Shown here: piece after piece, positions 32,537 through 58,995 of the stretch
Position numbering within the stretch: the stretch's first letter is position 1
Layout: every line of letters starts with the position of its first letter
Assembly (NCBI GenBank): GCA_016875915.1
Contig: VGOM01000004.1
Coordinates: 1 to 64,000 of the forward strand
Length of the DNA: 64,000 bases
DNA from: Chloroflexota bacterium
Lineage (GTDB): Bacteria > Chloroflexota > Dehalococcoidia > UBA2247 > RBG-13-53-26
Reading direction: 5' to 3'
The notes under the pieces: model-generated
What the model was told of the DNA's origin: nothing
Seen by the model: the letters and a program-made list of their open reading frames with translations, nothing else
Database searches by the model: none
Position numbers and translations under genes: made by a program

Positions 32537-33993
32537 CCGGCCACCGCCAGCTCAGGGGACAGCCCCAGGGCCTGAAAGAGGGCCCTGGCCTTGTCCAGGG
32601 TCTCCTGGTACTCGGCGTCCGGGTCGGAATCGTAGGTCACCGCCCCGCCCACCTGGAGGAAGGCCCGGCCGTTCCTCACCAGTATGGTCCGGATGACGAT
32701 GTTCAGGTCCATGGTGTCGCCGAAGCCCAGGTAGCCGATGGAACCGGTATAGATGCTCCTCCGGGTGGGCTCCAGCTCGTCGATGATCTCCATGGCACGG
32801 ACCTTGGGCGCCCCGGTGATCGAGCCTCCGGGGAAACTGGCCTTGAGCAGATCGATGCGGTTCTTCTCCGGGCGCAGTCTGCCTTCCACGCAGGAAGTGA
32901 GCTGGAATACTGTAGCATACTTCTCCAGCGTCCACAATTCCCGCACCCTCACCGTGCCGGAGCGGCAGACCCGGCCCAGGTCGTTTCGCTCCAGGTCCAC
33001 GATCATCACATTCTCTGCTCTGTCCTTGGCGCTTGTCTGCAGCTCCCGGGCCAGGGCTTCATCCTGGGCGGGTGACTTGCCCCGGGGGCGGGTGCCCTTC
33101 ATGGGACGGGTTTCCACCAGGCCGCCATTGACCTTGAGGAACCTCTCTGGCGAGGCGCAGACCACGGTCACATCGTCGAGGTTGAGGTAGGCCGCGAAGG
33201 GGGCCGGATTGATCCCCTTGAGCCGCTGGTACAGCTCGTAGGGGGGCAGGGGCAGATCGGCGTCGAAGCGCTGGGACAGGTTGACCTGGAAGATGTCTCC
33301 CCTGGCGATGTACTCCCTGGCCGCCTCCACGGCCCTGAGGTAGTCGCCGCGGCTGAAGTTGGAGCGCAGCCTTATCTCCGGCCTGCCCTGGCTGCCGCCG
33401 GACGCGGGGTCGGCGGGAGACGGCGGTGACCGAAGGGGTGGGCCATGGGCGGACAGCAGCCGTTCCCTGGTCTCCTTCAGCCGGCGGTGGGCCCGTGCCA
33501 GCCTCTTCTCCTCGTCCTGCTCCGGGAAGCCGGTGGAGGCGATGTAGGCCCGGTTCTCCAGGTGATCGAAGGTGACCGCCAGATCGTAGAGGGCCATGCA
33601 GCATTCCGGCAGTGACAGGTCGTCCACGGCGGTGCGGGGCAGCTTCTCGATCAGATTGCAGAGGTCATAGCTGAGATAGCCCACCGCCCCGCCGGGGAAG
33701 GGCGTGGGGCACGGTCCGGGCTCAAGCTCGTAGCGGCGCAGCAGTGCGTCCAGGGTGTCGAAGGGGCTGGCCGCGGTCAACCGCTCGCCGCCGGGGCCGG
33801 TGATGCTCAGCCGGCTGTCGTGGCTCTTCAGGACCAGGAAGGGATTGCTGCCCATGAAGGAGTAGCGGCCCAGGTTCATCTCGTTCATGCCGCTGTCCAG
33901 GAAGAAGCTGAACGGCTCCTGGCGGAAGACCTCGAAGGGGCGGGTGGCGCCGACGGGGATATGGATCTCCTCGATGAGAGGGTAGCGTCTCAA
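32533..33993 (-). CDS. pabB: aminodeoxychorismate synthase component I
   Basis: ETRPMKGTRPRG carries the PabB-type Lys (PIKGT) rather than TrpE PIAGT; SFFLDS in place of the TrpE LLES. TTG start at 33993, 4 nt after the AOR stop. Confidence 0.88.
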   Translation of the reverse strand: MRRYPLIEEIHIPVGATRPFEVFRQEPFSFFLDSGMNEMNLGRYSFMGSNPFLVLKSHDSRLSITGPGGERLTAASPFDTLDALLRRYELEPGPCPTPFPGGAVGYLSYDLCNLIEKLPRTAVDDLSLPECCMALYDLAVTFDHLENRAYIASTGFPEQDEEKRLARAHRRLKETRERLLSAHGPPLRSPPSPADPASGGSQGRPEIRLRSNFSRGDYLRAVEAAREYIARGDIFQVNLSQRFDADLPLPPYELYQRLKGINPAPFAAYLNLDDVTVVCASPERFLKVNGGLVETRPMKGTRPRGKSPAQDEALARELQTSAKDRAENVMIVDLERNDLGRVCRSGTVRVRELWTLEKYATVFQLTSCVEGRLRPEKNRIDLLKASFPGGSITGAPKVRAMEIIDELEPTRRSIYTGSIGYLGFGDTMDLNIVIRTILVRNGRAFLQVGGAVTYDSDPDAEYQETLDKARALFQALGLSPELAVAG

Positions 33994-33997
33994 GCGG

Positions 33998-35920
33998 TCA
34001 GTCCCTCTGTCCCTTCGCCCCGGCCAGAAGTCCCCGCGTGCCCAGTTCGGCGGCGATGTCCCCCAGCCCCAGCTCCTCCAGCCTGGCCGCCGTCGGCAGG
34101 CCGGTGGCTGCATCCCAGCCCCGCAGCTGGTAGTACTCGTCCTTGGTCCTCTCGAATCCGGCCCGGTCCACCACCGTGCCCTTTCGAGAGATCAGCTTCC
34201 CCGCCTTGCCGGGCACCAGGCACTGCGCGTTGGTGGAGTTGGTCTTCAGGGGCCGGACGTGCCATTCGGCGGGCAGCTGGTCGTCCTCCCTGCCCCGGTG
34301 CCCTTCCTTGATCAGGATGGCCCTCTGCAGGTTGAGGACCCTCTCCCCCATCCGGTAGAGACCCTCTTCGTCAACCTCATCCCCGGTGACTGCGGAGAGG
34401 ATCTGGCTCTCCAGGGAGGGATCGCCGGTGTGGCCGGGGGAATCCTTGACCGTCAGGGCAGGCCACATCCAGTCGCACAGGATGAGGCATTCCTTGGCAT
34501 ATTCCCGGTCCTGGATTCTCCGCGCGGCCAGCGCCTTGCCCTTCCAGGTGGTGAAGTCGGCGGCCATCTCGCCCCCCCAGAACCTCCTGGCGATGCTCCG
34601 GAGCACCGGTGTGGATACATAGGCCCCGTCGACGCCCTTGATCCAGCTGACCCACTGGGCCAGGGGCAGGCCCACTTCGTGGAGCTGCTGTATGGGCTCC
34701 CGGGGCTCGGTGGCCCAGAGCAAGGCCGTGGTGATGTACAGTCTGGGGTCGTAGGGATCGATGTGTCTGATATGTGATTCCGCCTCAGGGCCCATGGAGG
34801 CGGCGGCCATGATCATGCCCCGGGCCAGGACATCGCCGAAGCCCTGCCGGAGAGAGATCATCTTCACCAGCGCTTCGATGAACTCCAGGCTGCCGATGCT
34901 GGACAGGGGCAGGCCCGTGCCGGCGTCGGTGAGCATGCCCGCCCTGCGGCCTCTGTTCAGCCAGCCGATCATGGCATCGACGGCCCAGGTGTCCAGTCCG
35001 AAGTCGTCGCAGAGCTTGTTGGCCTGGAAGGGCACCTCGTTCTTGCCGCCGTGGTGCTTGTAGGCCCAGGGTTGATAGAACAGGGCGGACTGGCACATGA
35101 ACTTGCCCTTCAACCCGCTCTCCGCCGAATACGTGGCCCTGAGGCAGTTGCCGATGCAGCCGTAGCAGGGGTCCTTCTTCATCCGTGGCCCGGCCACGCG
35201 GAAGTCCGTGCCCCAGGCCACGAACGCCCCCCTCTCCATGCCCCGGAAGCGCCGGGTCAGCTCCGCCAGTCTCTCTGGCTGAGCTACCCTGACCCCCTTC
35301 CCCGCAGCCCTGACGGCGACGGCCTTCAGCTTCTTCGAGCCCATGACCGCCCCCAGCCCGGCGGAGCCGCTGGCGTCGTTGTCGGCCAGTATGCTGGACA
35401 GGGCCACCAAATTCTCGCCGGCGGGCCCGATGGTGACCACCCTGACGCTGCTGCCCAGCCGTTCCTTGATCAGCCCCCTGGTCTCGATGGCCCCCTTGCC
35501 CCACAGCGCGGAGGCGTCCTGCAGTTCCACCGATCCGTCGTTGATGAACAGGCAGACCGGCTTCTCGGACTGGCCCAGAACCACCAGGGCGTCGTAGCCC
35601 GCGAACTTCAGCTCCGCCCCCCAGCGTCCTCCCAGATTGGAGTAGCAGAACCGCGGCGGGTCTGACAGTGGCGACTTGGCGCAGATGGTCCATCTGGAGC
35701 CGCCCAGAACGGGAATCCCGGCCAGCGGCCCGGTGGCGAAGATCAGGATGTTGGCCTCGTCGAAGGCGCCGGCCTGGGGCGGCACCGTATCCCAGTAGGC
35801 CCGGGCGGCGATGCCCCGGCCGCCCAGGAAGGCGGCGTAGTCGGAGGTGGGGATCACCCGGCTGTCGCCTGAGGACAGATCGACCGCAAGGATTCTGCCG
35901 GCGTAGCCGAAGTCGGACAT
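33998..35920 (-). CDS. aldehyde ferredoxin oxidoreductase (tungsten AOR family)
   Basis: MSDFGYAGRILAVDLSSGD, GSRWTICAKSPLSD, CYGCIGNCLR [4Fe-4S] motif, GLGAVMGSKKLKAVAV. Confidence 0.93.
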   Translation of the reverse strand: MSDFGYAGRILAVDLSSGDSRVIPTSDYAAFLGGRGIAARAYWDTVPPQAGAFDEANILIFATGPLAGIPVLGGSRWTICAKSPLSDPPRFCYSNLGGRWGAELKFAGYDALVVLGQSEKPVCLFINDGSVELQDASALWGKGAIETRGLIKERLGSSVRVVTIGPAGENLVALSSILADNDASGSAGLGAVMGSKKLKAVAVRAAGKGVRVAQPERLAELTRRFRGMERGAFVAWGTDFRVAGPRMKKDPCYGCIGNCLRATYSAESGLKGKFMCQSALFYQPWAYKHHGGKNEVPFQANKLCDDFGLDTWAVDAMIGWLNRGRRAGMLTDAGTGLPLSSIGSLEFIEALVKMISLRQGFGDVLARGMIMAAASMGPEAESHIRHIDPYDPRLYITTALLWATEPREPIQQLHEVGLPLAQWVSWIKGVDGAYVSTPVLRSIARRFWGGEMAADFTTWKGKALAARRIQDREYAKECLILCDWMWPALTVKDSPGHTGDPSLESQILSAVTGDEVDEEGLYRMGERVLNLQRAILIKEGHRGREDDQLPAEWHVRPLKTNSTNAQCLVPGKAGKLISRKGTVVDRAGFERTKDEYYQLRGWDAATGLPTAARLEELGLGDIAAELGTRGLLAGAKGQRD

Positions 35921-36257
35921 CGTACCGCCTGGATGATGCGCCCTGACGCTGCCAAACGGGTCGCGGGTCAGCACTGTCAGGATACCATATTCAGCCGGAT
36001 TCAGGGATTGTGGCCGTGCCTGAGTGGTTGCTGCCCCTGGGTGAAGCATGACGTACTGGCGGCGCAGGCGCATGTTGACTATTTCCCAGTCTCCAACTAT
36101 CATGCGCAGTGCCATCTGCAGCGCAGTGTGGCCGCAGCACCGAGATACGCGACCATCGGGCCCGTACCCGCGCATCTGGCCAACCGCGGAGAGCCTACAC
36201 ACCGCCTTTGACAATCAGGAGCGGCCCTAGCCGCATCTTCCAGAGGGAGGTGCCAAT

Positions 36258-37478
36258 GTGGCAGAGCAACCCGAAGGTGCTTTGAGCGTGTACCGCGTCC
36301 TGGATCTGGCTGATATCAAGGGGGCATACTGCACCAGGCTGCTAGCAGACCAGGGTGCTGAGGTCATCAAGGTCGAGAGGCCGGAAGGTGGGTCACCGAC
36401 CCGGAGCATTCCACCGTTTGCCGGTGATGAGCCTCACGTTGAGCGGAGTCTTCAGTTCCTCTACCGCGACGCCAACAAGTTTGGGATAACCCTGGACTTG
36501 GAGCCGCCGGATGGAAGACACCTTCTCAAGAAACTGGTGGAGACTGCAGACGTCCTGGTGGAAACCTATCCACCGGGCTATATGGAGAGCCTGGGGCTTC
36601 ATTACGAAGCGCTCAAGGAAGTGAACCCCGGCCTTGTCATGGCTAGCATCACAGATTTCGGCCAGACCGGCCCGTACCGGGACTGGAAGGGTTCCAGTAT
36701 GGTTCATTGCGCCCTGAGCACCACCATGATCAGCAGTGGCTACTCTGACGGAGCACCTATCAACCTGCCAGGCATGCCGTCCTACGACGCGGCTTCGCTG
36801 ATAGCTGCTACCTCCATAATGGCGGCACTCTACCAGAGAGCCACCACAGGCTCGGGTCAATACTGTGACATCTCGGTGCACGAATGCTCGCGCCTTGGCC
36901 TCTACCCCTGGATGGTCCCAATCTACTCGTATGGCCTGAATCCTGGCAGTCCACCCCCTCCGCCAGAAGGGCGACTGGGAGCTGCCATCTACCCCGTGTA
37001 TCCCTGCAAAGATGGCTTCGTTCGGATAGTGGCTATCACCCCACCTCAATGGAAGGCCCTGGTTCGGGTGCTCGGCGAGCCCGAAGTGCTGCGCCTGCCC
37101 GCGTGGCAGGAGTTCATGTACCGGATTGCCAATGCCGCCGATCTCTATGCTCTCATGCTGGAATTCACCACCAAATACACCATGGCTGAGCTCTTCGAGG
37201 CGGGGGACCGGGAGGGTGTGCCCATTGCGCCCATCTATAGCCTGGACGATTTTGCCAACAGCTCCAACGCCAAGGCCAGAGGATTCTTCGTCGAAATGGA
37301 CCATCCGGTGGTGGGCAAATTTGCCTGTCCCGGGCCGCCCTATAAGTGGACGGGCACATCCTGCAGTGTCCGCCGCCCTGCACCGTGCCTCGGCGAGCAC
37401 AATGAGAGAGTGTACTGCCAGGAAATGGGGTTGACGAAAGATGATATGGCAGCCCTGAGATTGGCCGGGATCATCTAG
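36258..37478 (+). CDS. CaiB/BaiF (class III) CoA-transferase, subunit/paralog 1
   Basis: VLDLADIKGAYCTRLLADQGAEVIKVERPEGG, DLEPPDGRHLLKKLVETADVLVETYPPGYMESLGL. GTG start with GGGAGG upstream. Confidence 0.92.
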   Translation: MAEQPEGALSVYRVLDLADIKGAYCTRLLADQGAEVIKVERPEGGSPTRSIPPFAGDEPHVERSLQFLYRDANKFGITLDLEPPDGRHLLKKLVETADVLVETYPPGYMESLGLHYEALKEVNPGLVMASITDFGQTGPYRDWKGSSMVHCALSTTMISSGYSDGAPINLPGMPSYDAASLIAATSIMAALYQRATTGSGQYCDISVHECSRLGLYPWMVPIYSYGLNPGSPPPPPEGRLGAAIYPVYPCKDGFVRIVAITPPQWKALVRVLGEPEVLRLPAWQEFMYRIANAADLYALMLEFTTKYTMAELFEAGDREGVPIAPIYSLDDFANSSNAKARGFFVEMDHPVVGKFACPGPPYKWTGTSCSVRRPAPCLGEHNERVYCQEMGLTKDDMAALRLAGII

Positions 37479-37491
37479 CGAGGAGGTCGGG

Positions 37492-38703
37492 ATGGCGAGT
37501 GCTCCGCTGGAAGGAATACGAGTCATAAGCTTCGGCACCGGGGCAGTAATCCCTGAATGGGGCAAGGCTCTGGGAGAGCTTGGTGCTGATGTGATCAAGA
37601 TCGAATCGAGGGAGAACCCCGATTTCGTGAGAACCATCGGGCCGGATATGAACAACATCCACGGCTTCAATGAGTCAAACCGGAGCCAGAGAAGCTTCGG
37701 GGTGAACCTCAAGAAGGAGAAGGGGAAGGAGCTTGTCAGGAGACTGATCAAGACAGCCGACATCGTGGGAGAGAACTTTCGCGGCGGCGCCGTGCGAAGC
37801 TTGGGCTTCGACTATGAAGATGTCCGCAAGACCAAGCCTGACATTATTTACATTAGCAGCCAGGGTTTTGGCCAGGGCACCCCATACACGAACTATCAAG
37901 CCTACGGTCCCATGCTGGCGGCTGCCTCCGGAGTGCTCTCTCTGTGGGCACAACCCACTGATCCCTACCCTGTGGGAGCCAACGTACCCCTCCCCGATCA
38001 CATGGCCAGCAAACAGGCGGTGTTTGCAGTTCTCGTGGCTCTCGACTATCGGCGTCGTACCGGCAAGGGGCAGTTCATCGATCTCTGCCAGGTTGAGGTA
38101 GCGGCCTGCATTATTGGCGAGTATTATCTGGACTACAGCATAAACCACCGGGTCGCCGCGAAGGTAGGCAACCGAAACCCCTTTGCCGCTCCATACAATG
38201 CCTATCGCTGCAGGGGTCAAGACCAATGGTGTGTCATAAGCGTGCTCACGAATGATGAATGGATGAGGTTCTGCGACGCAGTTGGGAACCCCGATTGGAC
38301 GAGGGATCCGAGATTCGCCGACACGGTGAGTCGCCTGAGAAATGTGGATGATCTAGACAAGCTCGTAGAGACATGGACGATCGAACACGAGCCGAGGGAA
38401 GTGATGAACACTCTGCAGGCTGCCGGGGTTGCCGCTGGAATGGCTCAGCGCGCTGCGGACACCATAGACGACCCCCACACAAAGGAGACGAAGGCACTGG
38501 TTGAACTTGATCATCCTGTGGCTGGCAGAAGGCTCTACACCAACGTGCCCTATAGGTTGTCCAATGCCACGCTTCCTCCCAGCCGGCGCGCGCCTCTTCT
38601 GGGGGAACACACTGACGAGATATGCCGCGAGTTGCTGGGAATGTCACCGGAGGAGATCCGGAAGCTGACAGAGGAAGGTGTCCTTGACGCCCCGTCCAGG
38701 TAA
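37492..38703 (+). CDS. CaiB/BaiF (class III) CoA-transferase, subunit/paralog 2
   Basis: LGADVIKIESRENPDFVRTIGP, KGKELVRRLIKTADIVGENFRGGAVRSLGFDYEDV, PLPDHMASKQAVFAVLVALDYR. Confidence 0.92.
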   Translation: MASAPLEGIRVISFGTGAVIPEWGKALGELGADVIKIESRENPDFVRTIGPDMNNIHGFNESNRSQRSFGVNLKKEKGKELVRRLIKTADIVGENFRGGAVRSLGFDYEDVRKTKPDIIYISSQGFGQGTPYTNYQAYGPMLAAASGVLSLWAQPTDPYPVGANVPLPDHMASKQAVFAVLVALDYRRRTGKGQFIDLCQVEVAACIIGEYYLDYSINHRVAAKVGNRNPFAAPYNAYRCRGQDQWCVISVLTNDEWMRFCDAVGNPDWTRDPRFADTVSRLRNVDDLDKLVETWTIEHEPREVMNTLQAAGVAAGMAQRAADTIDDPHTKETKALVELDHPVAGRRLYTNVPYRLSNATLPPSRRAPLLGEHTDEICRELLGMSPEEIRKLTEEGVLDAPSR

Positions 38704-38844
38704 CAGGCTGGTGTCCAGGCCTCATGCATTGGTGACACGCCCTACCACACGACGCACTGTGGAGGTGCAGCGACACCTGCCCCGGGTGTCAGGCGCGAGG
38801 GCTGCGGACAAGCCGCCTCTTGATCTGCACTCAGGAGAGTGAAC

Positions 38845-39687
38845 ATGGAGAAGAATGGAATCATTGCGCTGGTCAACAAATCGCCGGAGTTTGTGGACAA
38901 ACACGATCGAGCGGGATGGCTGGACCTGTTCTCATCGAATGCCGTCGTAGAGGACCCGGTGGGAGCTGGCCCTAACCGCAAGGGCAAGGACATACGCAAT
39001 GGGAAGGACGCCCTCGGACGTTTCTACGACATCTTCATCGGCCCCAACAAGATCAAACTCGATGTGCATCAGGACATCGTCGTCGCCAACGAGATGGTTC
39101 GAGAGGTCTCGATACATACCACTCTGCCCAACGGGGCCATCACCATAGTGCACTCCTATTTGGACTACAAGATAGTCGAGGAGAATGGGCAGCTCAAGAT
39201 CGACATGCTGCGCGCGCACTGGGATCTCGGTAGGAATGCCCTGGCGATGGTCCAGAACAGCGGCTTGAAAGGCATCATCGGCTCGACAGTCCAGTTTGGC
39301 GCCATAGTCAAGGCGCAGGGAGTAGGGCGGACTATCGAGTACGTGGGAGCCATGTACAAGGGCATCCGCAAGAAGGGGATGAAGGCCGCCGATGCCTTCG
39401 CCGCCGCGGTCAACGCCAGTGACGAGGGCGTTCTTGCGCGACTATTCGAGACCGGTGCTGCTGTCCACTTCCCTGTGGGCACGGAGCCAACATCTCCGGT
39501 CGATTTCCTCAGGGGGGCGGGCAGGGATGTGAAGCTGGAATTCGAAGGATTGAGATCAGGTGGCTGGTTCACCTCCAGCGCCTTCAGCGCCAGGGAGGCT
39601 GTAACGGACACGCACGGCGCAGTCTTCTTTGAGTTCAGCCCGAAGAGCCGGAAGATGGTCAACGTCCGGTTCTTCTGGAATCGGTAG
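38845..39687 (+). CDS. NTF2/SnoaL-like fold protein, probably two tandem domains
   Basis: ALVNKSPEFVDKHDRAGWLDLFSSNAVVEDPVG... and a second AFAAAVNASDEGVLARLFETGAAVHFPVG repeat of the fold. AGGAGAG RBS. Confidence 0.65.
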   Translation: MEKNGIIALVNKSPEFVDKHDRAGWLDLFSSNAVVEDPVGAGPNRKGKDIRNGKDALGRFYDIFIGPNKIKLDVHQDIVVANEMVREVSIHTTLPNGAITIVHSYLDYKIVEENGQLKIDMLRAHWDLGRNALAMVQNSGLKGIIGSTVQFGAIVKAQGVGRTIEYVGAMYKGIRKKGMKAADAFAAAVNASDEGVLARLFETGAAVHFPVGTEPTSPVDFLRGAGRDVKLEFEGLRSGGWFTSSAFSAREAVTDTHGAVFFEFSPKSRKMVNVRFFWNR

Positions 39688-39775: not shown

Positions 39776-40705
39776 CTACCTGCCCACATCTGCCCTGATG
39801 CCATGAGATTCGACCAGTCTCTTCAGTGCCCCAATCCGCTCGTCGCTGACAGCGGGAATGCCTTTCCAGGGATACACCTTCCCGGTAGCCGCATACTTCG
39901 GCTCCCCGAACTTGTGGTACGGCAGGAGCGAGATCTTCTCCACCCGAGGTTCGAGGGCATGAACGAGCCTGCATAGCTGCTCCAGCTCACCCTCGGTGTC
40001 ACTGAATTGGGGAATCAGCGCATGTCGTATCCACACTTTGAGGCCTGGCTTGGCCACCGTCTTTCGCAGGTTCTCCAGAATCCGGTCATTCGGCACCCCG
40101 GTAGCTTCCTCGTGTCTGACTGAATCTGGGTGCTTGATGTCATACAGCACCAGGTCAACGTGGTCCAGTACCTTGTCCAGGGTTTCCCAGTCAGCATAGC
40201 CAGAGGTATCCAGGGCAGTATGGAAGCCTCTTCTCCTGGCCTCCCGGAGCAGTTCTAGGGCAAACTGCCACTGCACCAGAGGTTCGCCCCCGGAAACGGT
40301 CATCCCTCCCTCAGTGCGCCCATAGAAACTCGCGTCTCTCGCCACCGTGTCCATCACTTGGGCGACAGTCATGTATTCGCCGGCACGCCCTATGGCCCCA
40401 GATGGGCATGCCTCGGCGCATCTCATGCATTCGTTGCATTGCTCCCACAGGATAGTACGGGCATTCCCTGCTATGGCGATGGCCTCGCGTGAGCACGCTT
40501 CGATGCATCTGCCGCACCTGATGCACTTCGCGTCCCGGGTGATTATCTCGGGGCTTGGTCTCGTGGACTCTGGGTTGCTGCACCACCCGCAACGGAGGGG
40601 GCAACCCTTGAGGAATACCGTAGTCCTTATCCCCGGGCCATCATGAATCGAAAAGCGTTGGATGTTGAAGACAACACCCCTCGCTTCGGCGGTGTCGTAA
40701 GGCAT
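39776..40705 (-). CDS. glycyl-radical enzyme activating protein (radical SAM, PflA family)
   Basis: FSIHDGPGIRTTVFLKGCPLRCGWCSNPES (CxxxCxxC) plus two ferredoxin-like clusters CIRCGRCIEAC and CNECMRCAEAC; GGMTVSGGEPL. Confidence 0.95.
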   Translation of the reverse strand: MPYDTAEARGVVFNIQRFSIHDGPGIRTTVFLKGCPLRCGWCSNPESTRPSPEIITRDAKCIRCGRCIEACSREAIAIAGNARTILWEQCNECMRCAEACPSGAIGRAGEYMTVAQVMDTVARDASFYGRTEGGMTVSGGEPLVQWQFALELLREARRRGFHTALDTSGYADWETLDKVLDHVDLVLYDIKHPDSVRHEEATGVPNDRILENLRKTVAKPGLKVWIRHALIPQFSDTEGELEQLCRLVHALEPRVEKISLLPYHKFGEPKYAATGKVYPWKGIPAVSDERIGALKRLVESHGIRADVGR

Positions 40706-40724
40706 AGCCCCAGCTATGGGTTGA

Positions 40725-40793: not shown

Positions 40794-43340
40794 CTAGCAG
40801 CGTAGGGATTGCTCCGTCCTGGCGATGATGCTGTCCTGGGTTTCCTTGGACAGGTCAATCCAGTAGGCGCTGTACCCCGCCACCCTCACCTGAAGATTGC
40901 TGTACCTCTCCGGGTGCTCCTGGGCATCCTTGAGTGTCTTGCTATCCCACACATTGAACTGGACGTGGGGAATGGTTCCCTTGGCGTGCCACTCCTTGAG
41001 GTACGCGGAGAACAAACTCCTGTTCTCTCCTTCCAGGTACTGGGGCATGAACCTCTGGTTCAGCAGCTGACTGTGCATGTACGGTATCTTGGCCACTGAG
41101 TTGAGCACCGCCGTCGGACCATTCTGGTCGGCCCCGGCCATAGGTGACAAGGTACCGTCAGCCAACGGGGTGCCGGCCCGCCTGCCATCGGGGGTGGCTC
41201 CGCACATAAGGCCAGACGATTGGAATGCCGCCGCTGTGCTCCCGTCAATGGTTACGGTACAACCCCAAGCATCTTTGACCTGATTCAGCGTGCCGTCATG
41301 CACTCTTGTCAGGACCTTCACCGCCCAGGTATCGGCATAGTCATCGTCATTTCCGTATTTGGGGGCCCTCAGGAATTCCTGGCGCATCACCTCGCGTCCT
41401 TCCCAGTTCGTCTTCAACGCCTCGATAAGCTCGTCCATGGTGTACTTCTTGTCATCAAAGACCAGCTTCTGAACAGCCGCGAGGGAGTCGGCGATGTTGA
41501 TCCCCCCCAGGAAGACCATGAAGGGCCAAGTATCATGCTCCTTGTGCAGCTCCGTGAGGTCGATCCCCCTTTCCACAGCCTCATCCAGGAGGAAGGAGTT
41601 GCAGGGGTCCGGGCTGTACTCGATCACTATCTGTTGTCCGATATTCCAGGAGCTTATCCCGATCTTCATGTAGAACAGCAGCCGCTCACAGAAGGCATCG
41701 AGGACCTCATCGGCAGACTTCATCTGCCTCGGGTCCTTGGTCTTGGGCTTGCCGGGCAAGGGAGGGGTTTCGAACAACCCGAAGACCTCGGACAGCAGCT
41801 TGGGACCGAATATGGCCCCGATGTTGGCAATACCCGAAGCTGTCACCGCCCTGCCGCGGATATGCGGATTGACGCAGCACCCCAGCTGCACCCTCTTGGC
41901 GTCTTCAGTGGACCAGCCCCTGGTGTAGCACCATTTCTCCAGCATGTCCTGATTGTGGAAAGCCGGCTGCCCGCTGCCCATCCGGTTCAGATCGATGGCC
42001 CTCTCTAGCACATCCGGCGAGATGTCCCGGTGGTAGAGCAGGCAAAGCGGCGGCTGGCAGAGGTGAAGATTGGCCAGCGCCTCCATGGCCATGCAACTCA
42101 AATCGTTGGATACGTCCTTGCCGTTCTCGTCTGCTCCGCAGATGTTCGGGGCCCAGCCTACATCGAAGCCGGCAGTGGCGCTGAAGATCGCCGGCCACTC
42201 CAGCGGAGACCCGATTTCCTGCGCCTTGATCCACAGGCACTCGACCAGCTCCAGTGCATCCTTCCTGGTGATCCGGCCCGCCTTCATATCGGCTTCGTAG
42301 TACGGCCACCACACCCGGTCGATCCTGACACCGCTGCCATTTCCGCACATCACCATGAAATGCCCCACAATCTCGACGATCCACATGAACTGCAGGGCTT
42401 CGTGGAAGGTCCGGGGCGGGTTGGCCGGGACCCAGTCCAGGATGTCGGCTAGATCCTCCAACTCCTTCTTGCGGGCCCTATCTTTCTCCGCCTTCGCCTG
42501 CTCTCTGGCGAGCTCAGCGTGTCTCTTGGCATAGCGGATAGTGGCCCGGCCGCATATCGCCATAGCTTCCCACTGGTGCTTCCTCGCCAGATACTCCGCA
42601 GGGCTCATTTCCCCCACTCTTGCTTCGAGGTCCTTCAGCTTGGCCTCGATCCTGTCGATCCTCGCCTGGAGACCTTCAGGGTAGAGCGTCTCGTAGTCGT
42701 ACCCGGGCAGGGCGCGGCTCTCTTCCCAGGTCTGCGGGTAGACGCTGACCGCGCTGGGGTCCTTGTCGACGATTGGCCTGAGGAATTGCGGTATGTGGTC
42801 ATATACTCGGTCCCTGACACACCTTCCCTTCCAGTATTCGCAGATGTCCTCGACGATCTCCTTCCTCTCCTCATCCGTAACCATGTTGGAGTAGCCACCC
42901 GTGGTGACCCCCTCTGGCATCCACCAGCAGCTGGCCTCGGGGTACCATCGTATCTCATCTGGCGACCCGTTGGCGTCACCCACTATGAGCTCTCCGGGCT
43001 TGATGAAGATGGGCATCTCGTCGCACATCTTCTCCACTGCCCTGGCCCTGCGGATGGCCCATGGCTGTCCCTCCGTCTCCCTGTAGGCCCTGGTCACCAG
43101 CCTGGCGCGGTCTAGGTCAACTCTGACTCCGCTACGGAATTCGCACTTGCCAAACCCGGCGGCAACCATAACCCACTCCTTGGTCACCGCTGCCTTCCAG
43201 CCCACTGAATCCCGGAGCTTGGCGGTGCGGGGCGTGGAGCCGTAGCCCCACTCGTAGGGCACGGTCTTGGTCACCCTGTCCTCAAAGGAAATACTGCCTG
43301 GCTTCGGTATGTCTGTTCTTGCCTTCACCGCGTGTGCCAT
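40794..43340 (-). CDS. glycyl radical enzyme of unassigned substrate (PFL/GRE superfamily)
   Basis: C-terminal glycyl radical motif LQVRVAGYSAYWIDLSKETQDSIIARTE; active-site Cys region VQLGCCVNPHIRGRAV; adjacent activase. Start ATG at 43340 preferred. Confidence 0.93.
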   Translation of the reverse strand: MAHAVKARTDIPKPGSISFEDRVTKTVPYEWGYGSTPRTAKLRDSVGWKAAVTKEWVMVAAGFGKCEFRSGVRVDLDRARLVTRAYRETEGQPWAIRRARAVEKMCDEMPIFIKPGELIVGDANGSPDEIRWYPEASCWWMPEGVTTGGYSNMVTDEERKEIVEDICEYWKGRCVRDRVYDHIPQFLRPIVDKDPSAVSVYPQTWEESRALPGYDYETLYPEGLQARIDRIEAKLKDLEARVGEMSPAEYLARKHQWEAMAICGRATIRYAKRHAELAREQAKAEKDRARKKELEDLADILDWVPANPPRTFHEALQFMWIVEIVGHFMVMCGNGSGVRIDRVWWPYYEADMKAGRITRKDALELVECLWIKAQEIGSPLEWPAIFSATAGFDVGWAPNICGADENGKDVSNDLSCMAMEALANLHLCQPPLCLLYHRDISPDVLERAIDLNRMGSGQPAFHNQDMLEKWCYTRGWSTEDAKRVQLGCCVNPHIRGRAVTASGIANIGAIFGPKLLSEVFGLFETPPLPGKPKTKDPRQMKSADEVLDAFCERLLFYMKIGISSWNIGQQIVIEYSPDPCNSFLLDEAVERGIDLTELHKEHDTWPFMVFLGGINIADSLAAVQKLVFDDKKYTMDELIEALKTNWEGREVMRQEFLRAPKYGNDDDYADTWAVKVLTRVHDGTLNQVKDAWGCTVTIDGSTAAAFQSSGLMCGATPDGRRAGTPLADGTLSPMAGADQNGPTAVLNSVAKIPYMHSQLLNQRFMPQYLEGENRSLFSAYLKEWHAKGTIPHVQFNVWDSKTLKDAQEHPERYSNLQVRVAGYSAYWIDLSKETQDSIIARTEQSLRC

Positions 43341-43494: not shown

Positions 43495-43761
43495 ATAATC
43501 AGAAATCTCTCACACGGTTCTGGACACAAATACGAACTGACCCCTAGACGGATGGCGAGTTTTCACAACCGCCACATCTTCGACGAAGCCGCCCACCCTG
43601 CTATCCTCCCACTTGAGCCTAACATATCTCATTGGGATCCCGTTGGCAAGCGCTTTGACTTCAGGATGTGCGTCTTCGCCAGGAAAAGCACTCCGGTGTG
43701 AGTGGTACTTGACAATCACTTCATAAAGAGATAGGACTAGTGTACAGTATTGGCGAGCACT

Positions 43762-44754
43762 ATGATGACATTTGGGCAGCGGCTGAGGGAGCTTCGACAG
43801 GCCAAGGGTATGACACAAGGAGGATTGGCGCGGAGGACAGCCATCAGTTCCACATACGTTAGTAAGCTTGAAACCGGTGTTGTGTCTCCACCCAGGCAGA
43901 AGATCATCTTGGCCTTGGCCAAGGCTCTTGGTGTAGACGAATCGGAGCAGGATGAGCTATTTGGCCTTGCTAGGAAGATCCCTCCTGACTTGTTGGCACA
44001 CGTAGACACTGGAATGATAAGGACGTGGCGATCCCTTAGGGAGAATGAAGAGACGCCAGCCCACGAATCAGCAGCATTGCGGCGGCGAATTGGTGAGTCA
44101 GAAGCATTGGACACCCGCCAAACGCGGCTTATGGAGTTGCCTGAGAGGCAGAAGGACATCTTTCGAGCCCTGATTGAGACTTTTCCGGACGGCATCGTGA
44201 TTCTGGGCAGTGAGCTAGAAGTCATATACGAGAACCCGTCCATCTCACGCATTCTTGGCTATCAACCGGGTGAATTTACTGGTAGGGATACGTTTGCGGT
44301 CATTCACCCAGATGATATGCCTAGGGTAGCCCGCAGGCTCGCCAAGATGATACAGAATCCAGATGACACCGGAAGTCATACCCAGTGCCGTGTGAGGCAC
44401 AAGGACGGCACGTGGCGTGTGGTTGATGCAGTCGCCAACAACCTTCTCCAAGATGCCGCCGTGAAGGGCATCGTTGTGGTAATCCACAAGATCGGCAGGC
44501 GTCACCAGGGCGAACAAGCCTTGGCTGAAGAAGCAGCGGCTTTGGCAGTGGCGACGAAATACCGCCTGACAGGGAGTGAACGCAAAGTGCTCACTCTGAT
44601 TACTGAGGGGAAGAGCAACCCCCAGATAGCGGAGCAGTTGGTCGTCAGTCCGTCCACTGTGAGATTCCACGTCACCGGTATCCTCCGCAAACTGGGTGTC
44701 ACCAGCCGCACGGAGGCAGCCGCCGTCGCACTGCGCTGCCACCTGGTCGACTGA
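43762..44754 (+). CDS. transcriptional regulator with N-terminal XRE HTH, central PAS, C-terminal LuxR-type HTH
   Basis: FGQRLRELRQAKGMTQGGLARRTAISSTYVSKLETGVVSPP (XRE); DGIVILGSELEVIYENPSISRILGYQPGEFTGRDTFAVIHPDD (PAS); LTGSERKVLTLITEGKSNPQIAEQLVVSPSTVRFHVTGILRKLGVTSRTEAA (LuxR). Confidence 0.92.
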   Translation: MMTFGQRLRELRQAKGMTQGGLARRTAISSTYVSKLETGVVSPPRQKIILALAKALGVDESEQDELFGLARKIPPDLLAHVDTGMIRTWRSLRENEETPAHESAALRRRIGESEALDTRQTRLMELPERQKDIFRALIETFPDGIVILGSELEVIYENPSISRILGYQPGEFTGRDTFAVIHPDDMPRVARRLAKMIQNPDDTGSHTQCRVRHKDGTWRVVDAVANNLLQDAAVKGIVVVIHKIGRRHQGEQALAEEAAALAVATKYRLTGSERKVLTLITEGKSNPQIAEQLVVSPSTVRFHVTGILRKLGVTSRTEAAAVALRCHLVD

Positions 44755-44983: not shown

Positions 44984-46078
44984 ATGAAGGCAGCCGTATC
45001 ATACGAGATCAAGGCTCCGATGCGCGTGGAGGAGGTGACCCTGGATGCACCACGGGACCATGAGGTCCTGGTGAAAATGGTCGCAGCCGGGACCTGCCAC
45101 AGCGACCTCCATTTCCTAAACGGTGACATTCCCGTGGCCATGCCAGTGGTAATGGGACACGAGGGGGCCGGGATTGTGGAGAAGGTTGGTCCCGGTGTAG
45201 CAACATTGAAGCCCGGTGACCACGTGGTGCTCATGGTGGCATTCTCATGTGGGAAATGCTTCTACTGTGCTGAAGGCCGGCCCACACTCTGCGTAGAAAA
45301 CCTCCCTATTCAGATCATGGGCAGCCTCCCCGGGGGCGGAATACGTTTGCACAAAGGCGGTCAAGACCTGCACCACCTCTTTGGTCTGGCCTGCTTCGCA
45401 GAATACGCTGTAGTTCATGAGCGTTCAGTAGTGAAGATCCGTGAGGATGCCCCGCTTGACGTGGCGTGCCTCCTTGGCTGTGGTACCAGCACCGGCATAG
45501 GCGCTGTTCTCAATACGGCAGGCGTCAAGGCTGGCCAGAGTGTAGCCGTTTATGGATGCGGTGGCGTTGGACTGAGTGCTGTCATGGCAGCCAAGCTGGC
45601 TGGGGCAGGTTTGATCATGGCAGTTGACACCCTGGAGCCGAAGTTGGAGATGGCCAAGGCCCTCGGGGCCGACTACGTTGTCAACGCCTCGAAAGAGAAC
45701 CCGCAACAGAAGGCCATGGAGCTGACTGCCGGCATGGGGCTGGACCACGCCGTTCCCTGCGTGGGCAACGCCGATGTAATCATGCAGGCCTTTGGTTCCA
45801 TCCGTAGCGGGGGGAAATGCATTGTGGTGGGACTGCCTCCCATTGGGGTCAATCTCAGCATCGCTCCCTACGAACTCCTTCAGGCCAAGGTCCTCACCGG
45901 CACTACCCAAGGCGACATAACGGCCTCAGTCGATATCCCAAGGTATGTTGACCTATTTATGAACGGCAAACTCGCCCTAGACAAGCTGATCACCAAGAGC
46001 TGCAGGCTGGACGAAATCAATGAAGCGTACGCGGCGCTGCAAAGAGGGGAGACCATCCGCACGGTAATCCGGTTCTAG
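44984..46078 (+). CDS. zinc-dependent alcohol dehydrogenase
   Basis: GTCHSDLHFLNGD, GHEGAGIVEKVGPGV, CGKCFYCAEGRPTLC structural Zn motif, VAVYGCGGVGLSAV Rossmann. Confidence 0.95.
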   Translation: MKAAVSYEIKAPMRVEEVTLDAPRDHEVLVKMVAAGTCHSDLHFLNGDIPVAMPVVMGHEGAGIVEKVGPGVATLKPGDHVVLMVAFSCGKCFYCAEGRPTLCVENLPIQIMGSLPGGGIRLHKGGQDLHHLFGLACFAEYAVVHERSVVKIREDAPLDVACLLGCGTSTGIGAVLNTAGVKAGQSVAVYGCGGVGLSAVMAAKLAGAGLIMAVDTLEPKLEMAKALGADYVVNASKENPQQKAMELTAGMGLDHAVPCVGNADVIMQAFGSIRSGGKCIVVGLPPIGVNLSIAPYELLQAKVLTGTTQGDITASVDIPRYVDLFMNGKLALDKLITKSCRLDEINEAYAALQRGETIRTVIRF

Positions 46079-46120: not shown

Positions 46121-47854
46121 ATGCCGGACCAGACGTTTGATGCGGTGATCGTTGGAGGAGGGAACAAAGCCCTGTTCCTGGCTATGTACCTGGCCAGATA
46201 TGCCGGGATGAGCGTCGGCGTATTTGAGCGGAGGCATGAAATCGGCGGCTGTCTGGCCACTGAGGAGACCTCGGCGCCGGGGTTTCGCACCAATACCCAC
46301 GCCACGCTGCAGCTCCCCTTCTACTACCTGCCGCTCTGGCGCGATTTCCCTGAGTTCTGGGAATACGGTGCCAGGCTGGACCAGCATATCTGCGCGGACG
46401 GTGCTGTATTCAGGAAGAATCAGACGTGCCTGACTATCTACAGTGACAAATACGATATGAGCCAGGAGCGTACCGCCAAGGAGATCGCCCGGTTCTCTGA
46501 GAGGGACGCTGAGAAGTGGCTCAAGCTCAGGAAGGTGTGGTTGGGCAGGGAGATGCAGCATGTGCAGTTCGATCAGTTGTTCAGGCCCGCCGAGGATAGA
46601 TTCGACCCCAAAGTGCTGGAGAGGCAAATAGCCGTCTATCCCCAGTTGGTGGAGATCGGGGCCGGCGTGGAGCCGGACGCACTGGTCCTCATGTCCACCC
46701 ATACCCGGAATGTCCAGGAGTTGTGGGAGAGCAAGGAGCTGCAGTACATCAATCTCAGATTCATTCTCGGAGCGGCCATGGATGTCAATCAGGCAGGGGC
46801 CGGCGCCTGGACGTTCGGTTTCTGCGGCACCATGCCCAATGGAGGTTTCTGTCCGGGAGGAACCCATCAGGTCGCTCACGCCGCCCATCAGATTCTGGTC
46901 GCCGATGGATGCAAGTTCTTCACCCACGCCGAGGTGGACAAGGTCATCATCGAGGATGGAACTGCCAAAGGCATCCGCCTGATGGATGGCAGTCAAATCG
47001 GGGCCAGAAAGCTGGTGGTGAGCACGTTGAGTCCGTACCAACTCTGTTTCGATTTGATAGGCAGGGAACATATGCCTCCGCGGATGGCGCGGCGCATAGA
47101 GATCCTTGAGAACGTCTTCGGCTGCCTGATGTGGTACAGCTTCGCCGTCCATGAAGCGCCACGGTACGAAGCTGCCGCGTTCAACCCCGACGTCAATGAT
47201 ACTTTCTACCTTGCGTTGGCGGAGGACAACGACCCCATGCATGTTTCCAGGGAGTGCTATTGGACAAGGCTGGGGAAATGGCCTCCTCTGGAGGACTACT
47301 GCCCCACCGTCTGGTCTCACAGCATACCCGACCCCACCTACGCGCCCGCGGGGAAGCATATCGTCAATCATGAGCAGCTTGGTCCGCCGGCCACCGCCCA
47401 TACCGAGAAGGAGTGGATCGAGGTCAAGAAGCGGTACGCCGAAGAGCTGATGAGCATCTGGCAGAAGCATGCTCCGAACATGACCTGGGACAACGTCATC
47501 GACTGCGAGTTCAACACCCCCTATGATCAGCTCAAGCTGAAGAATCTGGCGCCAAACGGGTGCATGGCCCTCCTTGACCGCGTGCCGTACCAGACGGATG
47601 ACAAGAGGCCCATCCCCGAGTTGGCCAACCACAGGACCCCCATCAAGAACCTCTATGCCACCGGTTCTGCCTGGCATCTGGGGGCGAATTCAGGCTCAAC
47701 AGAGTCATACAACTGCTACAAGATCATTGCCAAGGACATGAATCTGGCCAAGCCGTGGGAGGAGCCAGGAAAAGAGGAGCCGGAATCCCTGTATCAGCTG
47801 TGGCTGACCATACTGAAGAGGGTGCAGGACCTGCCCAAGGTGAAACCGCCCTAG
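46121..47854 (+). CDS. phytoene desaturase-like FAD/NAD(P)-dependent oxidoreductase
   Basis: DAVIVGGGNKALFLAMYLARYAGMSVGVFERRHEIGGCLATEE; C-terminal IKNLYATGSAWHLGANSGSTESYNCYKII. Confidence 0.8.
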   Translation: MPDQTFDAVIVGGGNKALFLAMYLARYAGMSVGVFERRHEIGGCLATEETSAPGFRTNTHATLQLPFYYLPLWRDFPEFWEYGARLDQHICADGAVFRKNQTCLTIYSDKYDMSQERTAKEIARFSERDAEKWLKLRKVWLGREMQHVQFDQLFRPAEDRFDPKVLERQIAVYPQLVEIGAGVEPDALVLMSTHTRNVQELWESKELQYINLRFILGAAMDVNQAGAGAWTFGFCGTMPNGGFCPGGTHQVAHAAHQILVADGCKFFTHAEVDKVIIEDGTAKGIRLMDGSQIGARKLVVSTLSPYQLCFDLIGREHMPPRMARRIEILENVFGCLMWYSFAVHEAPRYEAAAFNPDVNDTFYLALAEDNDPMHVSRECYWTRLGKWPPLEDYCPTVWSHSIPDPTYAPAGKHIVNHEQLGPPATAHTEKEWIEVKKRYAEELMSIWQKHAPNMTWDNVIDCEFNTPYDQLKLKNLAPNGCMALLDRVPYQTDDKRPIPELANHRTPIKNLYATGSAWHLGANSGSTESYNCYKIIAKDMNLAKPWEEPGKEEPESLYQLWLTILKRVQDLPKVKPP

Positions 47855-47886: not shown

Positions 47887-48348
47887 ATGCAACTGAACGA
47901 TCACGGCGAGTCCCTTTGTGGGCAACACGTCCTCCAGTATCCCTACCGGCGAGCGACGGGGCCGATTCTCGGTCGCTTCTTCACTGAGATCCGCGACAAC
48001 GGGCGGTTCCTGGGCATCAAGACGTCCTCTGGCAGCGTATTGTGCCCACCGGTGGAAGTAGACCCGGACACGCTGGAGGACCTGTCAGTGGACGATCTCC
48101 AGGAGGTGGGGCCGGCGGGTTGTGTCACCAGTTGGACCTGGCTGAGCGAGCCACGTCCGGGCAACCCTGTGCAGCGACCGTTTGCGTGGGCGCTCATCAA
48201 GCTCGATGGCGCAGACTCGGCTCTGCTGCACGCCGTAGATGCCGGCAGCGAGTCTGTCATGCGAACGGGGATGCGAGTCATCCCCCGCTTCGCTGATGAG
48301 CGGAATGGCGGGATACGCGATATTGCCTGCTTCGTGCCGGAGGATTGA
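47887..48348 (+). CDS. DUF35 OB-fold protein, rubredoxin-like Zn ribbon lost
   Basis: FFTEIRDNGRFLGIKTSSGSVLCPPVEV: Zn-ribbon Cys positions replaced; OB-fold part FAWALIKLDGADSALLHAVDAG. Confidence 0.75.
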   Translation: MQLNDHGESLCGQHVLQYPYRRATGPILGRFFTEIRDNGRFLGIKTSSGSVLCPPVEVDPDTLEDLSVDDLQEVGPAGCVTSWTWLSEPRPGNPVQRPFAWALIKLDGADSALLHAVDAGSESVMRTGMRVIPRFADERNGGIRDIACFVPED

Positions 48349-48350
48349 CT

Positions 48351-48866
48351 ATGGCTGAAACAAGGAAGCCGGTCACCACCATCAAGACGCCCGTCGCCAT
48401 CCACTACAACTACTCGATTGGCGCGGGGCAAAGTGCATTCATGCGTGCCATCCGGGAAGGGCGGATTTTGGGGGTGCGCTGCCCGGACACCGGCAAGGTC
48501 TACGTCCCCCCCAGACTCACGTCCGTCGAGACCGCCTCGCCCATGACCGAGCTTGTCGAGCTTCCCGATCGGGGCGTCGTCTACACCTACTGTATCGTCA
48601 ACATCAAGTTCTACGACCAGGTCCTCGATATCCCCTACGCGTACGGCTACATCGTTCTGGACGGCGCTGACAGCGCCATCATGCACCTGATCCAGGAATG
48701 CCCGGTTGAAGAGATGCGGCCTGGGATGAGGGTGAAGGCCGTGTGGAAGGATCCCAAGGAGTGGACGGAATCGCTGGAGAACATCCGGTATTTCAAGCCG
48801 ACAGGGGAACCCGACCTGCCCATCGAGCAAATCATGAACGAGATCCGGAAGAAGTCATATGCGTGA
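48351..48866 (+). CDS. DUF35 OB-fold protein, degenerate Zn ribbon
   Basis: FMRAIREGRILGVRCPDTGKVYVPPRLTSVET (one Cys only), YGYIVLDGADSAIMHLIQECPVEEMRPGMRVKAVWK. Confidence 0.8.
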   Translation: MAETRKPVTTIKTPVAIHYNYSIGAGQSAFMRAIREGRILGVRCPDTGKVYVPPRLTSVETASPMTELVELPDRGVVYTYCIVNIKFYDQVLDIPYAYGYIVLDGADSAIMHLIQECPVEEMRPGMRVKAVWKDPKEWTESLENIRYFKPTGEPDLPIEQIMNEIRKKSYA

Positions 48867-49917
48867 GGTCGCCATTGTCGCCTTCGGGCAGACGCCGAAC
48901 CGGCGAAAGGAACTGCATCGCAACGATGCCGAGATGGTGGCCCCCGTCGTGGCGGAGCTGTTGAAAGGCGCAGGCCTGTCCCGCAGGGACGTGGACTTCA
49001 CCTGCTCCGGTTCCTCAGACTTCCTGGCGGGGTACTCATTCTCTTGGGTAATGGCTATCGACGCACTTGGAGCCTGGCCGCCGATCCAGGAGTCCCATGT
49101 TGAGGGCGAGGCGGCCTGGGCCCTCTACGAAGCATGGGTGAAGATGCTCTTCATGGACGAGATCGAGGTGGCTCTCGTCTACGGATTTGGCCGCCAGAGC
49201 ATGACTTCACCTCGCGATGTCATGGTCTTGATGAACGACCCCTATCTCGAGACGCCACTGTGGCCGGACGCGATCTCACAGGCCGCTCTGCAGGCACGGG
49301 CGCTTCTTGATGCGGGGCTCTGCACGGAGCGTGACTTCGCCGAGATTGCGGTGCGGAACCTGCGGCACGCGGAGGGCAATCCCTTGGCACAGTTGTCGGG
49401 TCGGCCGGATCCCGACGAGCTGCTGAAAGCGCCGACGATTGCGTCGCCTTTGCGGAAACACGACTGCCCGCCGATAACTGATGGGGCGTGTGCCGTCCTG
49501 CTTGCTGCTGGTGACCGGGCACGCGCGCTGTGCAGGCGGCCGGCGTGGATTCGAGGACTGGCTCACCGCATCGACGTTCAGGCGCTGGGTCGTCGCGACC
49601 TGACCCACTCCGTCTCGGCGCGGCTCGCCGCGGAGGCGGCGGGGGCGATCGGAACGCCGATCGACATCGCAGAGCTTCATGCTCCGTTTACTCCTCAGGA
49701 CTGGATCCTGCAGCGGGAGCTGGGGATCGCGAAACGCACCATTGTCAATCCCTCGGGCGGCATTCATCAGGGGAATCCCATGATGGCTACTGGCCTCGTT
49801 CGCTTCGGCGAGGTGGCTGCACGCATCATCCGCGGGGAGGCAGACCGGGGTGTGGCTCATGCCACACAGGGGCCCTGCCTGCAGCAGAACATGGTGTGCG
49901 TCCTGGAGGCTGAGTGA
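48859..49917 (+). CDS. thiolase-fold (SCP2/lipid-transfer-type) protein, module A subunit 1
   Basis: VAIVAFGQTP..., SGSSDFLAGYS, ITDGACAVLLA, NPSGGIHQGNPMMATGLVRFGE. No Cys at the usual nucleophile position (HVEGEAAWAL). Confidence 0.82.
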   Translation: MREVAIVAFGQTPNRRKELHRNDAEMVAPVVAELLKGAGLSRRDVDFTCSGSSDFLAGYSFSWVMAIDALGAWPPIQESHVEGEAAWALYEAWVKMLFMDEIEVALVYGFGRQSMTSPRDVMVLMNDPYLETPLWPDAISQAALQARALLDAGLCTERDFAEIAVRNLRHAEGNPLAQLSGRPDPDELLKAPTIASPLRKHDCPPITDGACAVLLAAGDRARALCRRPAWIRGLAHRIDVQALGRRDLTHSVSARLAAEAAGAIGTPIDIAELHAPFTPQDWILQRELGIAKRTIVNPSGGIHQGNPMMATGLVRFGEVAARIIRGEADRGVAHATQGPCLQQNMVCVLEAE

Positions 49918-51080
49918 TGGCCAGCCGTTGCGCCGTAATCGGCATAGGACAGACGAAGCACACGGACAAGCGCCTCGACGTCAATCACACCGGGATGGTC
50001 CGCGAGGCATGCAATCGTGCGCTGGAAGACGCCCGCCTGTCCTGGAAGGAAGTGGATGCCCTGGTCATTGGGAAGGCACCAGACACCATCGAGGGAGTCA
50101 TCTGTCCGGAGCTCTACATGGCCGAGGCTCTCGGCATGGTCGGGAAGCCGCTCTTCCGTGTTCACACGGCCGGGTCGGTGGGAGGGACAACGGCGATTGT
50201 AGGCGCCGAGTTGGTACGTGCGGGCGTACACGACAAGGTTCTGGTGGTGGGCTGGCAGAAGCAGAGCGAGTCGGATATTACGTGGGCCCTATCGCCGCAT
50301 CTGCCCTTTGACCCGCCGCTCATGGCAGGAGCGGGCGGCTTCTTTGCGCCCCATTTCCGGGAGTACATCCGTCGGTCTGCTGCGCCGGACCACGTCGGCA
50401 TCAAAGTGGCGGTGAAAGATCGCCGGCATGCCTTGAGGAATCCCTACGCTCATCTACATCAGCCAAAGGTCTGCTTTGAAGAAATCCGCGACACGCCCAT
50501 GCTCTGGGACCCGCTCCGCTATGGAGAGACTTGCCCCTCGAGTGATGGCGCCTGTGCTATGGTTCTTTCCAGCGAGAAGTACGCATATCATGGTGGCACT
50601 CGCCCCGCGTGGGTCCATGCCACGGAGATGCGTTCCGAGCCCACAATCATGCCGGGACGAGATGAGGTCAACCCGCGTGCCGGACGCGACTGCGCCGCCG
50701 CGTTGTACAAGCAGGCGGGAATCACCAATCCGCGCAGGGACTTCGACTGCGCCGAGATCTACGTGGCCTTTTCATGGTTCGAGCCGATGCTGGCTGAGAC
50801 CCTGGGTTTTGCCGAACCCGGCGAAGGATGGAAACTTAGCGACTCGGGCGCCACGTCGCTGGACGAGGGCGGAGACATCCCCTGGAACTGCTCCGGCGGC
50901 GTGCTCTCGTCCAACCCAATCGGTGCATCGGGCACCTTGCGCATGGCAGAGGCAGCGCTCCAGGTTCGAGGCCAGGCCGGGGCGCATCAGGTAGATGGAG
51001 CCCGGCTCGCCCTGGCTCATGCGCTGGGGGGTGCCTCCCAGTTCTTCGCCATGTGGATTGTGGGTAGCGAGAAGCCATAG
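49917..51080 (+). CDS. thiolase-fold protein, module A subunit 2
   Basis: CAVIGIGQTKH..., LFRVHTAGSVGGTTAI (no nucleophile Cys), SSDGACAMVLSSE, NCSGGVLSSNPIGASGTLRMAEAALQVRGQAG. Confidence 0.88.
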   Translation: MASRCAVIGIGQTKHTDKRLDVNHTGMVREACNRALEDARLSWKEVDALVIGKAPDTIEGVICPELYMAEALGMVGKPLFRVHTAGSVGGTTAIVGAELVRAGVHDKVLVVGWQKQSESDITWALSPHLPFDPPLMAGAGGFFAPHFREYIRRSAAPDHVGIKVAVKDRRHALRNPYAHLHQPKVCFEEIRDTPMLWDPLRYGETCPSSDGACAMVLSSEKYAYHGGTRPAWVHATEMRSEPTIMPGRDEVNPRAGRDCAAALYKQAGITNPRRDFDCAEIYVAFSWFEPMLAETLGFAEPGEGWKLSDSGATSLDEGGDIPWNCSGGVLSSNPIGASGTLRMAEAALQVRGQAGAHQVDGARLALAHALGGASQFFAMWIVGSEKP

Positions 51081-51147
51081 ACACGTCGTCATGTAGACCT
51101 ATTCCAGTGTGTTTGTGAAAGCACCGTATTCTGAGAGAGGAGATCGA

Positions 51148-53253: not shown

Positions 53254-53271
53254 GGCAAGGGAGGAGACAGC

Positions 53272-54435: not shown

Positions 54436-54445
54436 GGAGGTATCT

Positions 54446-54958: not shown

Positions 54959-54961
54959 AGA

Positions 54962-58992: not shown

Positions 58993-58995
58993 TGT
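58959..58995 (+). terminator. T-box Rho-independent terminator
   Basis: AGCCCTCCGC (58959-58968) / GCGGAGGGCT (58980-58989), followed by TATTGTTT. Confidence 0.9.

Follow-up and report, generated by a model that had tools for sequence, protein, structure and literature searches.

Which reaction is catalyzed by a glycyl radical enzyme (GRE) whose active-site loop carries two adjacent cysteines, as pyruvate formate-lyase (PFL) does, and does this doublet define the enzyme? The question is raised by a minus-strand gene at 40794–43340 of the window, by which we mean the whole 64,000-nucleotide stretch of a Chloroflexota contig that was analyzed. As described below, the gene represents a real GRE lineage, and its interest does not lie in the Cys doublet.

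The Enzyme and Its Activase

The frame running from 43340 to 40794 is open and intact, and its product is an 848-residue GRE. A TTG at 43388 is a possible alternative upstream start; the ATG at 43340 agrees with the start of an 83% identical ortholog (L036). Pfam finds a PFL-like domain (PF02901, the PFL-like barrel, residues 74–699, E = 1.6e-141) and a Gly_radical domain (PF01228, E = 8.5e-25), with the RVAGYS motif and Gly822, the glycyl radical site, in the C-terminus. Alignment places the codon of Gly822 at 40875–40877, that of the catalytic thiyl cysteine, Cys489, at 41874–41876 and that of Cys488, the first residue of the doublet, at 41877–41879, all on the minus strand and exactly where the first-pass annotation had put them. 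Gly822 and Cys489 are invariant in all 63 aligned GREs. An AF2 model built on the 63-sequence alignment reached a pLDDT of 89.2 and a pTM of 0.91; this alignment was used in place of an 8-sequence clade alignment, which gave a pLDDT of 38. When the model was compared with the PDB by Foldseek, all 50 of the top matches listed were GREs, the highest query TM-score among them being 0.87, for benzylsuccinate synthase (BSS; 4pkf).

Directly downstream lies a GRE-activating radical SAM enzyme with a ferredoxin-type [4Fe-4S] insert (39776–40708, minus strand), recognized by profile and homologs (TIGR02494, 346 bits against a cut-off of 174). Its reading frame is open to 40858, and the start was placed from the homologs. 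The activase adjoins the GRE in every relative whose flanking DNA permits checking. The GRE identity of 40794–43340, proposed in the first-pass annotation, is confirmed far beyond chance, with the open 848-residue frame, the two Pfam matches and the adjoining activase all in agreement. Two other features to which that annotation drew attention turn out to be unremarkable: the N-terminal half, thought to be odd, is covered by a PF02901 match at residues 74–699 that is ordinary for PFL2/GD-type GREs, and a length of about 848 residues, noted as greater than that of PFL, is usual for XSS-type enzymes.

Placement Within the GRE Superfamily

The protein scores below every curated equivalog cut-off, reaching 86.8 of the 994 bits required by TIGR01255 (pyr_form_ly_1), 399 of 1100 for IAD and 274 of 1150 for HPAD. 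To place it, we built a maximum-likelihood tree of 37 GREs under a mixture model; PhdB, HPAD and IAD sequences were left out of it, and its GD-, HypD- and CutC-type labels come from Cys-loop motifs and tree position, not from curated annotation. The window GRE and six relatives form a clade with 100/100 support on a long stem of 0.6 substitutions per site. With 100/100 support, this clade falls in one branch together with BSS, (1-methylalkyl)succinate synthase (MASS; PDB 9o8u and L022) and a second, Arg-bearing group from Dehalococcoidia; the glycerol-dehydratase-type enzymes, HypD, CutC, IslA and YbiW all fall outside this X-succinate synthase (XSS)-containing branch. A quick tree with PflB added gave the same placement. 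Profile and tree thus agree with the earlier suggestion of a GRE subclass apart, since no equivalog cut-off is reached and the clade stands on its own, separate within the BSS/MASS branch.

The window enzyme resembles BssA/TutD and MasD, the α-subunits of BSS and MASS, in its branch, in a Glu-less Cys loop of similar length and in its fold (query TM-scores of 0.84–0.87), and the two best solved matches to its stretch from the Cys loop to GND are BSS (TutD) and MASS. It differs from them in sequence, with 29–31% identity to BSS and MASS, and in the long stem of its own clade. The glutamate two residues after the catalytic cysteine is absent in every sampled row of the XSS-containing branch and present in the GD-, HypD-, CutC- and IslA-type rows. 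In the window enzyme this position is Asn491, and across the clade it is Asn, Thr, Ala or Ser. The first-pass annotation had therefore rightly set the enzyme apart from the Glu-bearing dehydratases, with the tree likewise placing it away from dehydratases and CutC, and its further suggestion of a possible addition enzyme agrees with the grouping beside the X-succinate synthases.

The Arg-bearing group (L028, L031, L007 and others) belongs to the same superclade, likewise has a Glu-less Cys loop and shares about 36–42% identity with the window enzyme. However, its Cys loop is 2–3 residues shorter, an arginine aligns with BSS R508 in most members, and in the one case read, the paralog L028 from the same genome, the gene surroundings are unlike those in the window. 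That genome (2.16 Mb in 115 contigs) encodes three further GREs. L028 (G000:C5:12788-15091) has the Cys loop SNCMSWIIPGK and the arginine aligned to BSS R508; its neighbors are an AFOR gene, a ThiF-family protein and an amidohydrolase. GREs are numerous in some Dehalococcoidia, with on the order of 20–25 candidates per genome in G040, G058 and G138, and many Cys loops in this class are of no described type (CMRW, CMSW, CMVP, CGNI). L022, also from a Dehalococcoidia genome, is a MASS/AssA-type enzyme that groups with MasD (100/100), has the arginine and is followed by two small open reading frames with CxxC motifs.

The window clade occurs mainly in Dehalococcoidia, in several families. The class includes single-contig genomes of 1.4–1.9 Mb in which the reductive dehalogenase domain has 21–30 matches, a trait that points to Dehalococcoides and Dehalogenimonas and suggests Dehalococcoidia as the class of the window's own genome. 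A contig search of the genomes gave a single match, an incomplete relative in a Desulfuromonadales MAG; members of the clade are found in two genomes of that MAG's class. The match (L005:6-479) is an 84% identical C-terminal GRE fragment at a contig end whose last residues diverge, as if frame-shifted or misassembled, and it reflects either horizontal transfer or misbinning. The nearest orthologs of the window gene are in other families of Dehalococcoidia rather than in the two congeners searched (63–68% complete).

The Active Site and the Cysteine Doublet

To our knowledge, structures have been solved for two X-succinate synthases, BSS and MASS. In these enzymes R508 and R492, respectively, 15 residues after the cysteine, hold one carboxylate of fumarate (PMC12358834), and this is the only fumarate-anchoring side chain common to both. 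The equivalent position in the window enzyme is Ile504 (codon 41829–41831, minus strand, by alignment), and it is Ile, Ala or Leu in all clade members; the AF2 model is uncertain precisely at residues 502–504. The same comparison recovers the arginine in the controls L090 (BSS) and L022 (MASS-like). The position of BSS Q707 and MASS E690 is Ser or Gly in the clade, and the pocket columns of BSS I384, F385, V709 and L711 are mostly occupied by small residues, so a bulky hydrophobic substrate would be admitted. The mapping of BSS W613 shifts by 1–2 columns between alignments and was dropped as a test. Ten residues are invariant in the clade and private to it (R131, W132, W382, P383, C401, S564, W565, K600, E601 and W672); speculatively, they could form a different acceptor site.

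No HiPIP- or rubredoxin-like Fe–S small subunit was found beside the GRE in the window or in L056, by a scan that finds these subunits at L090 and L022. The window enzyme thus differs from the BssA/TutD and MasD systems, which have R508/R492, Q707/E690 and the small Fe–S subunits. Because the fumarate arginine and the small subunits are both missing, we do not class it as an X-succinate synthase.

The Cys doublet had been taken in the first-pass annotation as the PFL-like feature that defines the enzyme. This was not supported: position 488, which corresponds by alignment to PFL C418 and BSS L492 beside the catalytic cysteine, is Cys in the window enzyme and L036 only, and Gly or Ala in seven other clade members, the relatives at 54–60% identity. 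L019, a member of a different GRE group, has a doublet of its own (NCCV; NCCVLP), which indicates that such doublets arise repeatedly outside PFL. The doublet was accordingly rejected as a family marker. With Cys488 limited to one ortholog and the L019 doublet separate, it is a recent local state, and Cys488 probably lines the pocket and does not act as a second catalytic thiol.

The Gene Neighborhood

The GRE lies within a set of putative catabolic genes. An AFOR-family gene (aldehyde:ferredoxin oxidoreductase; 33998–36214, minus strand, by domain match, with the true start inside the reading frame) is followed on the plus strand by two adjacent class III CoA-transferase subunits. The first (36258–37478) is of the BbsE type and lacks the catalytic Asp, with chain A of benzylsuccinate CoA-transferase (9fn0_A) as its best PDB match; the second (37492–38703) is of the BbsF type, has the Asp and matches 9fn0_B best. 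Such an arrangement, with the catalytic Asp in the F subunit only, is that of a BbsEF-type pair, and the CoA-transferase tree puts the first gene with BbsE and the second with BbsF (100/99 in both cases). In a genome that carries bss, the two corresponding genes of a bbs-type cluster are 33/27% and 35/27% identical to them, the BbsE/BbsF identity of these reference genes (L104) being given by their position in a bbs-like cluster on a bss-bearing contig. A SnoaL-like domain protein (38839–39687, plus strand) precedes the activase.

On the other side of the GRE, all on the plus strand, are a regulator with HTH, PAS and LuxR-type domains (43750–44754), a Zn-dependent alcohol dehydrogenase (44984–46078), a CrtO/phytoene-desaturase-like FAD oxidoreductase (46121–47854), two DUF35 genes (ChsH2 OB-fold/Zn-ribbon; 47887–48866), two thiolase-fold genes (48859–51080; 48859–49917 and 49914–51080, the latter SCP2-thiolase/BbsB-like), an enoyl-CoA hydratase (51109–51969; 35% identical to its counterpart in a bbs operon), a second thiolase pair with a second DUF35 pair (52096–55462), an acyl-CoA dehydrogenase (55517–56686; 29% identical to the corresponding bbs-operon dehydrogenase) and an HTH-cupin regulator (56702–57364). 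One of the thiolases matches BbsB among others. The gene set resembles the β-oxidation route of succinate adducts (PMC10818641). Like the BssA/TutD and MasD systems, the locus has genes similar to BbsEF, BbsG, BbsH and BbsAB near the GRE; unlike in those systems, no BbsCD-like SDR pair was recognized in the island.

The order of the GRE, activase, CoA-transferase pair, alcohol dehydrogenase, FAD enzyme and DUF35/thiolase genes is kept in G134. The relatives L061, L062 and L063, at 54–56% identity, show no CoA-transferase pair within the sequence stretches examined; they carry FAS1-DH/MaoC genes, type I CoA-transferases (in two of the three) or HgdD genes. CoA-transferase pairs with thiolase/DUF35 genes also occur in aerobes that have no GRE (Variovorax and Rhodococcus plasmids), and we have therefore down-weighted the argument that the BbsEF-like pair proves a succinate adduct. 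The CrtO-like gene was likewise given little weight as a functional link, because this family, multi-copy in Dehalococcoidia and with essentially no solved relative, is present in 4–19 copies in six of the eight genomes checked.

The island (36258–57364) has a GC3 of about 0.54–0.78, compared with mostly 0.84–0.90 in the genes on both sides, and it is flanked on both sides by genes for anthranilate synthase component I (32533–34113 and 58917–60512), so that it looks inserted among trp genes. The low GC3, together with nearest orthologs in other families, suggests horizontal acquisition. Elsewhere in the window, a gene of the histone-deacetylase family was observed at 29976–31007 (338 bits).

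Proposed Reaction and Alternatives

We tentatively propose that the window GRE is a divergent, XSS-related radical-addition enzyme that acts on a bulky hydrophobic substrate and has an altered acceptor site. By homology, the neighboring activase would install the radical on Gly822, which would relay it to Cys489. The Cys489 thiyl would then take a hydrogen atom from the substrate, and the resulting carbon radical may add to an unsaturated acid, either a different enoate or fumarate bound in another way. The substituted dicarboxylate could be charged with CoA by the BbsEF-type transferase, and the CoA adduct handled by the dehydrogenase, hydratase and DUF35-thiolase enzymes.

Radical addition is favored because of the tree position and the absent glutamate, and the CoA-transferase pair, dehydrogenase, hydratase and DUF35-thiolase genes are those that further conversion of a substituted succinate would call for. 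We count in favor of this reading the 100/100 XSS branch, the Glu-less loop, BSS and MASS as best matches, the BbsEF pair, the synteny in G134 and the small pocket columns. Against it we count the missing R508/R492, the Ser or Gly at Q707/E690, the lack of small subunits, the lack of a CoA-transferase pair in L061–L063 and the presence of such pairs in GRE-less aerobes. In its fullest form, this would be hydroalkylation of a bulky alicyclic or aromatic substrate with a non-fumarate acceptor, or with fumarate bound through new residues; the Dehalococcoidia concerned would be fermentative or syntrophic, and no BSS-type small subunits would be needed. That would constitute a new GRE reaction type, and we regard this more specific version as possible, though somewhat unlikely.

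An unlikely competitor is C–C chemistry other than addition, in which a radical C–C lyase or decarboxylase acts on a hydrophobic acid and the products enter the neighboring CoA pathway. The Glu-less Cys loop and the small residues lining the pocket would suit such an enzyme, and the solved arylacetate decarboxylase 7e7l comes fairly close behind in score (325–426 bits). However, HPAD and IAD have a Cys-x-Glu dyad (PMC6181972) that is absent here, Asn taking the Glu position, and the IAD and HPAD scores given above are far below their cut-offs; the tree on which the placement depends holds neither decarboxylase sequences nor PhdB.

It is improbable that the enzyme is an X-succinate synthase proper, needing no small subunits and holding fumarate by a different set of residues (K600–E601, S564–W565 or R131–W132, for instance). 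The grouping with BSS and MASS, the BbsEF-type pair nearby and the clade-private invariant charged or aromatic residues K600, E601, W565, W382 and R131 are consistent with this possibility, but both the arginine common to BSS and MASS and the small subunits are missing.

Equally doubtful is an aldehyde-forming eliminase (a C–O, C–N or C–S lyase) that works without the glutamate and feeds the AFOR and the alcohol dehydrogenase, the acid then being activated with CoA. An AFOR gene is indeed found near the GRE both in the window and in L056, and also near the paralog in the window's own genome. These AFORs are non-orthologous, though, and only about 28% identical to the window counterpart; at Cys+2 a Glu is found in each eliminase family checked (GD-, HypD-, CutC- and IslA-type), against Asn, Thr, Ala or Ser in the clade, and the tree position also argues against elimination.

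Finally, PFL chemistry is unlikely from the sequence, and acyl transfer in which both cysteines take part, on the PFL model, is very improbable: a Cys-Cys-Val-[SN]-Pro loop (CCVNPxIxGR, resembling CCVSPMIVGK of PFL) and the glycyl radical domain are shared with PflB, but identity to PflB is 22.8%, the pyr_form_ly_1 score is 87 of 994 bits, R176, W333 and R435, the pyruvate residues of PFL, align with L211, G395 and A509 (the N-terminal mapping being loose), and the first cysteine is conserved no further than one ortholog, with the doublet not kept in the other relatives.

Implications

Dehalococcoidia are widespread in marine sediments. AssA-type and BSS/NMS-related GREs have been reported in Dehalococcoidia MAGs by Dong et al. 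2020 (PMC7673041); those that cluster with BssA/NmsA come from the same bacterial class and the same side of the GRE tree, and they may include the window lineage. Wasmund et al. 2016 described putative benzylsuccinate CoA-transferases in Dehalococcoidia single-cell genomes (PMC4959651), of the same two-gene kind as 36258–38703, and a word search of that text finds no mention of glycyl radical enzymes. In the literature outside subscription papers and supplements, we came across no account of a sister lineage that lacks the fumarate arginine.

The lineage described here is a sister lineage from which the fumarate-gripping residue common to the solved BSS and MASS is missing. If it still forms C–C bonds, radical hydroalkylation would follow a broader acceptor rule than thought, and Dehalococcoidia would possess a new route of anaerobic activation. 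If it does not, the lineage would mark the point among the Glu-less GREs at which addition chemistry arose. In both cases, a check for Arg508 would have to be added to surveys of Chloroflexota MAGs in which any BssA-like GRE counts as "fumarate addition".
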